A stretch of 20,224 nucleotides of DNA from a virus. Position numbers and translations under genes: made by a program. Position 1 is the stretch's first letter; the number at the start of each line of letters is the position of its first letter. Under the pieces are notes generated by a model. That model was not told where the DNA came from. It ran no database searches and saw only the letters and a list, made by a program, of their open reading frames with translations. The DNA is taken from positions 1 to 20,224 of IMG/VR virus record IMGVR_UViG_3300024259_000185. One strand, given 5' to 3'. Shown piece by piece: positions 4,301-5,411 of the stretch.

Positions 4301-4450
4301 TTATTTCCTCTTTGGTTTGTTTGTCAAGTTAGGTTGTTCTTTCACCATATTTTTTACTACCGTACTGTGCAATGCAAGGCGCCAGTTAAAATATAGAAAA
4401 GAAGCTGAGTTAATCCCAATCAATATCCATAATAATTCTTCTGTTGTCAT
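4301..4450 (-). CDS. Small single-pass membrane protein (49 aa)
   Basis: The protein starts MTTEELLWILIGINSASFLY, with one transmembrane helix at about residues 5-22, then a basic tail ending EQPNLTNKPKRK. GGAG six bases before the ATG at 4450 fixes the start. The frame stays open farther upstream, but that extension runs through the tRNA-like element and the tmRNA 3' end and is not coding. The gene begins 15 bases after the tRNA-like element, so it is probably co-transcribed with the tmRNA and freed by processing. The next gene starts two bases after its stop. Confidence 0.65.
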   Translation of the reverse strand: MTTEELLWILIGINSASFLYFNWRLALHSTVVKNMVKEQPNLTNKPKRK

Positions 4451-4464
4451 TTTTTCTCCGTTAG

Positions 4465-4510
4465 AGCCACCTGCCAGAGTCGAACTGACGATCTGCTGAA
4501 CTAAAGTGGC
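4465..4510 (-). pseudogene. tRNA-Thr-like remnant lacking the anticodon arm (46 nt)
   Basis: On the minus strand, GCCACTT (4510-4504) pairs with AGGTGGC (4472-4466) in a full seven-pair acceptor stem with one T-G pair. A perfect T arm lies inside: GTCAG, the loop TTCGACT, and CTGGC. After the acceptor comes TAGTTCAGC, the usual start of a D arm, but then AGATC leads straight to the T arm. The rest of the D arm, the anticodon arm and most of the variable loop are missing. The AGATCGTCAGTTCGACTCTGGC part looks like a bacterial tRNA-Thr (family memory, not a search). No CCA is encoded. It starts six bases after the tmRNA CCA. It may be a deletion relic or an RNase P/RNase Z processing element. 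Confidence 0.75.
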
Positions 4511-4516
4511 GTGGGT

Positions 4517-4880
4517 TGGTGGAGGTGTCGGGAGTCGAACCCGAGTCCAATATGTCTCTCTACTTCTGTCATTCACAAGGTTATCTAGTTTTTCTAAACC
4601 AGCAAAATAATCTGCAATATCCCTTATCCTATGCAGTCTCGGATATCCACCTGCTATAAGCAGGGAGCCATTATGGTTTATTGTAATGTCAGAGGAACCA
4701 CCCTCTTAGTCGCTATTGGTTAATAAGGTCAGCAACAACCCCAGAACTACGCAGCTTGTGCGTAATTCAACTCCACATTATCGTTGGCGTTTAAAAAATT
4801 GAATGTTTTTTACTGTGCCTTCATTCATCACAGCCTTGCACAGAAATGCTTCAACACAATGTCAAAACCTGTTCACCCCC
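4517..4880 (-). ncRNA. ssrA: tmRNA (transfer-messenger RNA), one-piece
   Basis: The 364-nt RNA has every hallmark. The 5' end GGGGGTG pairs with CACCTCC near the 3' end, and the third pair is G-U, the alanine identity element. The T arm is TCGGG, loop TTCGACT, CCCGA. Discriminator A and an encoded CCA (4519-4517) follow. After the 5' domain comes an H-type pseudoknot: CTGTGC/GCACAG (4843-4838 with 4818-4813), and loop TGAATG (4827-4822) pairs with CATTCA (4805-4800). Next is the resume codon GCC and a 13-residue tag reading frame. It rescues stalled ribosomes: alanine is added, the RNA switches templates and the product is tagged for proteolysis. A sigma70-like promoter lies just upstream and YkuK/Smr genes precede it. 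Large-phage tmRNAs are known, for example in some mycobacteriophages. This one is complete and probably functional. Confidence 0.97.
4747..4788 (-). other. tmRNA tag reading frame: ANDNVELNYAQAA
   Basis: Fourteen codons from the resume codon GCC to TAG, 18 bases after the second strand of the first pseudoknot's inner stem. The tag is ANDNVELNYAQAA. It starts AND as in many bacterial tags, and ends AQAA where most end in ALAA. The final AA is the part read by ClpX in known bacteria, so the degron looks kept, with Gln in place of Leu. Confidence 0.93.
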
Positions 4881-4903
4881 ATGTTTTTAAAGAACTTACG
4901 TTA

Positions 4904-4932
4904 AGTATAATAACAAACCCTTAAGTTTTCAA
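4904..4932 (-). promoter_or_regulatory. Sigma70-like promoter for the tmRNA
   Basis: On the minus strand TTGAAA (4932-4927) and TATACT (4909-4904) are separated by exactly 17 bases; each differs from the sigma70 consensus at one base. The expected start near 4897 would leave about 17 bases of 5' leader for RNase P to remove before GGGGGTG at 4880. The promoter lies in the gap after the YkuK gene stop (4941), so the tmRNA can be made by unmodified host RNA polymerase. Confidence 0.75.
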
Positions 4933-4940
4933 GTCTTTTT

Positions 4941-5411
4941 TTATTTATTATGTTTGTCTGCTACAGATGTAGCTGCGAAAGCATCTGGCTTTATTTTACA
5001 AGGGAAGCCAACTCCTTTAGCATATCCAACCAACATATCAGAGAATCTGCTTGTTGCTTCTTTTTTATCGGAAGCAGAAATATCTAAATGAAGTTCGATG
5101 TTCACAGCAGGGCATTGTCCTAAGATATTTAAAGCAGTGTTTACTGTGTTCTCAACTTCATATGTGATTCTCTCCATAAGAGTTGGGAATTTTGTTACCT
5201 TGAAGCGGGTTCGTTTAAAATAATAACGTCCTCCGATCTGGTCATTTGCTCCGTGGAGGCATATAGCAGTAGAGTAAATACATTCTTTTTTTACAATATG
5301 ACTGTCAGTCCCAATATATACTTGTCCTTCTTTGGAAGAGTGCTCTTCTATTTCTTTTAGAATATCTTCGTAAGTTGTTTTTTCGTGGGAGCCGTTTGAC
5401 CAGAGGTCCAT
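4941..5411 (-). CDS. YkuK-family (DUF458) RNase H-fold protein
   Basis: This 156-residue protein has the first-strand motif VYIGTDSHIV (31-40, Asp36), which starts RNase H-fold enzymes. It then has ICLHG, a YFKRTRFKV strand, a long helix with ERITYEVENTVNTAL, the strand NIELHLDISASDKKEATS with further acidic residues, and the family ending KPDAFAATSVADKHNK. This order matches Bacillus YkuK-type proteins, which are predicted RNase H-like and of unknown cell role. AAAGGAACAAG before the ATG supports the start. It lies between the Smr-domain gene (upstream) and the tmRNA (downstream). That suggests a role in RNA turnover or processing, but this is inference. Confidence 0.8.
   Translation of the reverse strand: MDLWSNGSHEKTTYEDILKEIEEHSSKEGQVYIGTDSHIVKKECIYSTAICLHGANDQIGGRYYFKRTRFKVTKFPTLMERITYEVENTVNTALNILGQCPAVNIELHLDISASDKKEATSRFSDMLVGYAKGVGFPCKIKPDAFAATSVADKHNK

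Follow-up and report, generated by a model that had tools for sequence, protein, structure and literature searches.

A one-piece tmRNA gene with its own promoter

The window, i.e. the whole 20,224-bp virus record that was analysed, very probably carries a functional phage-encoded one-piece tmRNA that has a promoter of its own and a tag of an ordinary kind. We describe the gene and its structure, the conserved promoter, the ordinariness of the tag, the allele exchange to which relatives point and a conserved motif in the leader. The only RNA gene that ARAGORN calls in the window is this tmRNA, on the minus strand. The Rfam model RF00023 covers the same span end to end (104.1 bits against a gathering score of 47, E 4.4e-40, model positions 1-374), a full-length covariance match that places the RNA in the family. 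A first-pass annotation had proposed a complete phage tmRNA that keeps the alanine G-U pair, an encoded CCA and pseudoknot 1 with both helices, to be checked with the Rfam tmRNA model. The match above the cut-off bears this out, and all of these elements are present in the window, where pseudoknots 2 to 4 can be drawn as well. The features of the gene are as follows (L015 is a related contig introduced below):

4517-4880, minus strand: tmRNA (ssrA), one-piece, 364 nt (ARAGORN and RF00023)
4874-4880, minus strand: 5' strand of the acceptor stem, GGGGGUG, with the G3 of G3-U70 (RF00023 and drawn structure)
4521-4527, minus strand: 3' strand of the acceptor stem, CACCUCC, followed by the encoded ACCA at 4520-4517
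4528-4544, minus strand: T arm, UCGGG-UUCGACU-CCCGA (100% of cells paired, both-side changes in 3 of 5 pairs)
4800-4833, minus strand: pseudoknot 1, CUGUG/CACAG and UGAAUG/CAUUCA
4747-4788, minus strand: tag reading frame, ANDNVELNYAQAA* (ARAGORN coding part 93-134; L015 tag identical)
4745-4767, minus strand: H5 hairpin over the tag end, with the Gln codon CAA in the loop (88.9% of cells paired)
4709-4742, minus strand: pseudoknot 2 (drawn on the window and the phage tmRNA alignment)
4673-4706, minus strand: pseudoknot 3 (drawn likewise)
4612-4646, minus strand: pseudoknot 4, predicted (only in the window and L015, identical in the paired strands)

The structure drawn on the window comprises the stem, the T arm, part of H2, H5 and the four pseudoknots, 82 pairs in all, and was scored over eight phage tmRNAs. 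Base pairing holds in 81.8% of 550 cells, compared with 44-46% when the partners are slid by 1-3 columns. Both-side changes occur in 28 pairs (shuffles, 15.2) and 52 cells (shuffles, 19.6), and none of 500 shuffles reaches either value. The G3-U70 alanine identity pair, a G·U wobble, is kept in all eight RNAs, including that of the window. The two helices of pseudoknot 1 are paired in 40% and 81.8% of cells, the low score of the first arising because the alignment, poor there outside the window and L015, is shifted. The window tmRNA has a single-strand fold z-score of -2.52, and its tag frame opens with Ala and closes with a hydrophobic/Ala stretch.

Two related contigs, L015 (185 kb) and L002 (97 kb), share the locus. 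L015 has the same tag as the window and lacks the encoded CCA, and L002 has the tag ANDNVVNDYALAA, ending ALAA. In both, the order is YkuK-like gene (directly upstream of the tmRNA), promoter, tmRNA, tRNA-Thr and small membrane-protein-like ORF. The corresponding features of the window are:

4941-5411, minus strand: YkuK-like RNase H-fold protein gene (PF04308, Pfam E 6.7e-28)
4927-4932, minus strand: -35 hexamer TTGAAA (same in L015 and L002)
4904-4909, minus strand: -10 hexamer TATACT, after a 17-nt spacer (same in L015 and L002)
4462-4510, minus strand: tRNA-Thr(UGU) pseudogene, with 27 nt including the anticodon arm deleted and CCA changed to CTA (alignment with L015 and L002)
4301-4450, minus strand: small membrane-protein-like ORF, 49 aa, starting MTTEELLWILIG (same position in L002 and L015)
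2516-1896, minus strand: stand-alone ClpP-like S14 protease, 2 kb downstream of the tmRNA (Pfam E 2.7e-26; PDB ClpP chains)

The window has one TTGAAA-17-TATACT (4932-4904, minus strand); shuffles lead one to expect 0.02. Both hexamers are identical in the window, L015 and L002, whereas the 17-nt spacer differs among them at 6 positions (by eye). The near-consensus sigma70-type promoter claimed in the first-pass annotation thus stands; by itself it would point to early expression of the tmRNA. No terminator-like site was found on the tmRNA strand between 3200 and 6800. Elsewhere in the window lie a putative lipoprotein with a MopE-type metal-binding motif (13045-11132, minus), a trypsin-like lipoprotein (348-1160, plus) and a phosphomannomutase/HAD-like hydrolase (1899-1153, minus).

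Relatives of the ClpP-like protein are 57-94% identical in all 11 loci found (90-94% in L015, L016 and L017), and the records of at least six of these loci (L015, L017, L020, L021, L023 and L025) include a tmRNA as well. Its best PHROG match is a head maturation protease. Searching named phages by tblastn gave only matches of <60% identity in 1567 records for the ClpP-like query (best listed, 28-37%) and matches in only four records, at 28-33% identity, for the YkuK-like query.

The tag end AQAA is widespread

The first-pass annotation had called the AQAA end unusual and suggested that the Gln near it may affect ClpX recognition. We searched viral stretches and one genome per species of GTDB for tags that start with AND(N/E/D/K) and end with AQAA. 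The pattern occurs in 89 viral stretches, at least 53 of which have an ARAGORN tmRNA, with 21 distinct tags, all ending AQAA. In bacterial genomes it occurs in at least 119 stretches, at least 80 of them with a tmRNA, and the matches listed hold nine distinct tags. Among these listed matches, 71 of the 80 bacterial AQAA tmRNAs carry ANDNYAPVAQAA or ANDNFAPVAQAA and come mostly from Bradyrhizobium and other Hyphomicrobiales, judging by record titles. The other stretches with the pattern (36 viral and, among matches listed, 39 bacterial) are presumably chance matches. The claim that the end is unusual is therefore contradicted, and AQAA was rejected as a distinguishing feature. Since AQAA is common in bacterial tags, where a Gln at this place is routine, there is no reason to expect altered ClpX recognition. 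The full tag ANDNVELNYAQAA occurred only in the window and L015 among the tags found. An open-licence literature search for tmRNA with AQAA returned no paper on tags by title.

A probable exchange of the tmRNA allele and a tRNA-Thr pseudogene

Three features of the locus are absent from the first-pass annotation, namely the probable exchange of the tmRNA allele, the tRNA-Thr pseudogene and the boxA-like leader. The window and L015 are 96.4% identical in the tmRNA, 71.6% in the 1 kb upstream and 78.7% downstream, and the window and L002 are 60.4% identical in the tmRNA, 76.2% upstream and 81.4% downstream. The phylogeny of the tmRNA, as read from these identities, is at odds with that of its flanks, which suggests that the tmRNA allele was replaced by recombination and behaves as an exchangeable allele at a fixed locus. 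As the AQAA/ALAA difference accompanies a difference of the whole tmRNA allele, AQAA is no selected point change.

The tRNA-Thr next to the tmRNA is intact in L015 and L002 at the same place. The element at 4510-4462 is therefore a deletion product, and the 27 nt were probably lost between CAG repeats. ARAGORN calls no tRNA at 4510-4462, and the anticodon arm expected of a tRNA-Thr gene is missing. A DNA pattern for the element matched no viral stretch. A functional anticodon-less mini-tRNA or a processing signal at this place was considered and rejected, given the intact tRNA-Thr of the relatives.

Probable function of the tmRNA

In a working tmRNA, host RNA polymerase would start at the TTGAAA/TATACT promoter, and the transcript would contain, in order, a leader of about 15-17 nt beginning with the boxA-like element, the tmRNA, the remains of the tRNA-Thr and the downstream gene. 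RNase P and 3' nucleases of the host would trim it, host AlaRS would charge it through the G3-U70 pair, and the tmRNA would partner with host SmpB. SmpB (PF01668) was found in none of 14 related virus records, most of which are fragments and none rated near-complete, and the control search found PF01668 in 10 of 14 known genomes, all bacteria; we therefore infer that the SmpB of the host is used. Ribosomes stalled on broken mRNA during infection would then be rescued, and ANDNVELNYAQAA would be added as an ordinary degradation tag to products that are subsequently degraded.

The cassette might instead lack a rescue function, as a decoy or as a passenger in decay. With a decayed tRNA-Thr in the window and the encoded CCA lost in L015, the cassette could be drifting, which counts against a working tmRNA. 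In addition, the truncated tmRNA of phage DS6A, consisting of the tRNA-like domain only, is likened to a tmRNA inhibitor in the available text of PMC4131195. We consider such a loss of function improbable, since the core domains are all intact and paired, with compensatory changes, and since the open tag frame and the promoter hexamers are conserved in L015 despite a flank identity of about 72-79%. Another explanation is that the phage has modified its tag to AQAA so as to direct tagged products to certain proteases or keep them away from these, the phage ClpP-like protein at 2516-1896 possibly among them. It would fit the occurrence of ALAA in L002 and AQAA in the window and L015 at one locus, as well as the nearby ClpP-like protein, present in all 11 loci and at least six times with a tmRNA in the same record. 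Yet AQAA ends are common in bacteria and unrelated phages, the AQAA/ALAA difference is tied to alleles of 60% identity rather than to a selected point change, and the protein is closest to a head maturation protease, all of which makes protease steering very improbable. A working tmRNA with an ordinary tag is the reading we retain.

A boxA-like element in the leader

Between the -10 hexamer and the mature 5' end of the tmRNA, the leader contains the following feature:

4885-4895, minus strand: boxA-like element GTTCTTTAAAA, 4 nt before the mature 5' end (exact match to GYTCTTTAANA)

The consensus GYTCTTTAANA was derived for gamma-proteobacteria (PMC5725501, available text). GTTCTTTAAAA is its only match in the window, where 0.29 are expected by chance; the match alone therefore means little, and it is place and recurrence that count. 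The core TCTTT[AG]A[AC]A stands 12-13 nt before the tmRNA in the window, L015, L002, L020, L021, L023, L025 and L029, against a background rate in viral loci of 7.7e-5 per position. The leader of L002 has GATCTTTAACA, which breaks the consensus Y; the same substitution, an A in place of the pyrimidine, is found in about a quarter of the clusters described below, among matches listed. No boxB hairpin was found in the window. A G+C-rich hairpin (GCCCCCTCG...CGAGGGGGC) directly precedes the boxA-like core in L020, L021, L023, L025 and L029, and in L315 (Acidobacteriota); this hairpin-core order is the boxB-boxA order of rrn leaders.

We scanned IMG/VR for the core followed by 1-6 nt and a tmRNA 5' end. 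At least 119 viral stretches match, compared with one when the core is scrambled to TTTCTARAM in an otherwise unchanged pattern, a control of one permutation only. The place of the motif, close to the beginning of an untranslated transcript, is thus conserved. Among matches listed, the 119 stretches represent 86 distinct genes in 58 clusters (<85% identity). A G two positions before the core, which the pattern leaves unspecified, is present in 55 of these 58 clusters, against a background of 15%, as in boxA, and a TATAAT-like hexamer (5 of 6) lies 2-12 nt before the core in 22 of the 58. Of the 121 core matches among those listed, 87 coincide with the start of a tmRNA called by ARAGORN and 34 do not; when 11 of the 34 were run against Rfam, eight had RF00023 there, one (L347) a permuted-family match and two (L353 and L361) none. 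L362 has, within 1608-1035 on the minus strand, a boxA-led tmRNA (RF00023, 1235-1608) and a group I intron (RF00028, 1035-1282) that overlaps its 3' part, and L376 and L384 each have two tmRNA 5' ends with boxA-like leaders, about 0.6-0.7 kb apart.

A less biased sample comprised at least 120 stretches, of which, among those listed, 29 have a standard tmRNA, 49 a permuted one and 42 no ARAGORN tmRNA. Among matches listed, the distinct standard phage tmRNA leaders, chosen without regard to the leader, contain the exact core in 3/27 cases and the core with at most one mismatch in 7/27, where shuffled leaders give 0.02 and 0.42. Most phage tmRNAs are without the core (20/27 among matches listed). 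Allowing one mismatch, the core is found in 2/27 leaders of Acidobacteriota (one exact) and 4/30 of Bacteroidota (in the GTDB sense), all at positions -13 to -15, and in none of 28 Pseudomonadota and 25 Bacillota leaders sampled; the whole pattern is absent from 299 Pseudomonadota genomes. Among 469 distinct tRNA leaders taken from the same viral loci, only five contain the core, so it is no general RNase P leader. The five tRNA genes, with the core at most 25 nt upstream, are at L440 2064, L429 10529, L376 360, L450 164 and L537 3946; about 0.6 would be expected at the background rate.

In the named phages Kumao, QDWS595, BUCT628 and S-CRM01, the tmRNA gene, permuted in three of the four, is not preceded by a boxA core, which counts against universality. 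By blastn, the boxA-led tmRNAs of L346, L357 and L348 matched no named phage, and that of L399 matched a single one, Synechococcus phage S-CRM01, which has a permuted tmRNA.

Antitermination as a possible role of the leader

A tentative reading, which we regard as possible, is that many phage tmRNA genes, the window's included, and a minority of those in Acidobacteriota and Bacteroidota (in the GTDB sense), begin with a boxA that recruits host NusB-S10, shields the transcript against Rho and aids pairing of its ends. The NusB-S10 machinery, normally reserved for ribosomal RNA, would be recruited right at the start of the transcript, and the polymerase would thereby resist Rho across about 430 untranslated nt of tmRNA and tRNA. 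Given this length and the lack of a terminator-like site between 3200 and 6800, shielding from Rho would benefit the tmRNA and the downstream genes alike. The acceptor 5' strand GGGGGUG, 1-6 nt after boxA, would be held until its 3' strand emerges about 350 nt later, modelled on the proposed rRNA leader-trailer helix. According to the available text of PMC10250234 and PMC6614801, the rrn boxA alone is necessary and sufficient for a Rho-resisting antitermination complex, and boxA-NusB tethering is suggested to retain the leader until it can pair with the emerging trailer. The 20 of 27 sampled phage tmRNAs and the four named phages without the core speak against the reading, as does the A that replaces the consensus pyrimidine in L002 and about a quarter of the clusters among matches listed.

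Alternatively, the motif may be no boxA at all, and may reflect an RNase P leader preference or a promoter-proximal element inherited with tmRNA genes. The motif does lie no more than 15 nt from the site cut by RNase P, and some bacterial tmRNA leaders in Bacteroidota and Acidobacteriota have it with at most one mismatch, which makes inheritance possible. We find this explanation somewhat doubtful: the motif is rare in the tRNA leaders of the same loci, its distance from the 5' end ranges between 1 and 6 nt, the G two positions before the core, for which the pattern did not select, fits boxA, and the Pseudomonadota and Bacillota leaders sampled lack the motif despite being cut by RNase P as well.

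The tmRNA itself is one more among several hundred known phage tmRNAs, with an ordinary tag, and it is the leader that would matter. If the boxA reading is true in dozens of phage lineages, these genes would form a class of Nus-complex targets outside rrn, suhB and the lambdoid nut sites, and the reading would explain how a long and stable untranslated phage RNA is made where Rho silences untranslated transcripts. It would also offer an easy test of whether the rRNA antitermination complex aids the pairing of distant RNA ends, since closure of the tmRNA has a simple read-out, charging by AlaRS. A boxA before tmRNA was not found described in the available text of open-licence papers on both (PMC10931766, PMC9873259 and the boxA text of PMC3395615), and the published boxA survey did not, in its available text, consider non-coding RNAs (PMC5725501).

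Comparison with known systems

The window tmRNA shares with one-piece bacterial tmRNAs (RF00023) the tRNA-like domain with G3-U70, pseudoknot 1, the tag frame, H5, further pseudoknots and the CCA. It differs in being phage-borne, and its score of 104 bits is lower than that of most sampled tmRNAs from Pseudomonadota (28, with 105-287) and Acidobacteriota (28, with 99-213). The C-terminal AQAA is common to the window, Bradyrhizobium and other Hyphomicrobiales and marine phages; however, the Hyphomicrobiales tags ANDNYAPVAQAA and ANDNFAPVAQAA come from permuted genes (ARAGORN), whereas the gene of the window is one-piece.

With the boxA of rrn leaders and suhB, the NusB-S10 site, the window has in common the consensus GYTCTTTAANA (PMC5725501, available text) and a place at the start of an untranslated structured RNA. 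Here the boxA-like element stands before a tmRNA and has no boxB hairpin, unlike the L020 group, where a hairpin precedes it, and NusB-S10 binding is putative.

Phage tmRNAs are known from eight mycobacteriophages (Bxz1 and Wildcat among them), Bacillus phage G and DS6A (PMC4131195), from 402 of 18,146 phage genomes and phage Melnitz (PMC9004378) and from huge phages (PMC7162821), as given in the available text of these papers, in which no mention of boxA was found. As in the window, these include complete ssrA genes in phage genomes. The tmRNA of Melnitz, too, is placed behind an early promoter by its authors (PMC9004378, available text). It is made of two pieces and comes with a glutamine riboswitch, whereas the tmRNA of the window is one-piece and has a boxA-like leader.
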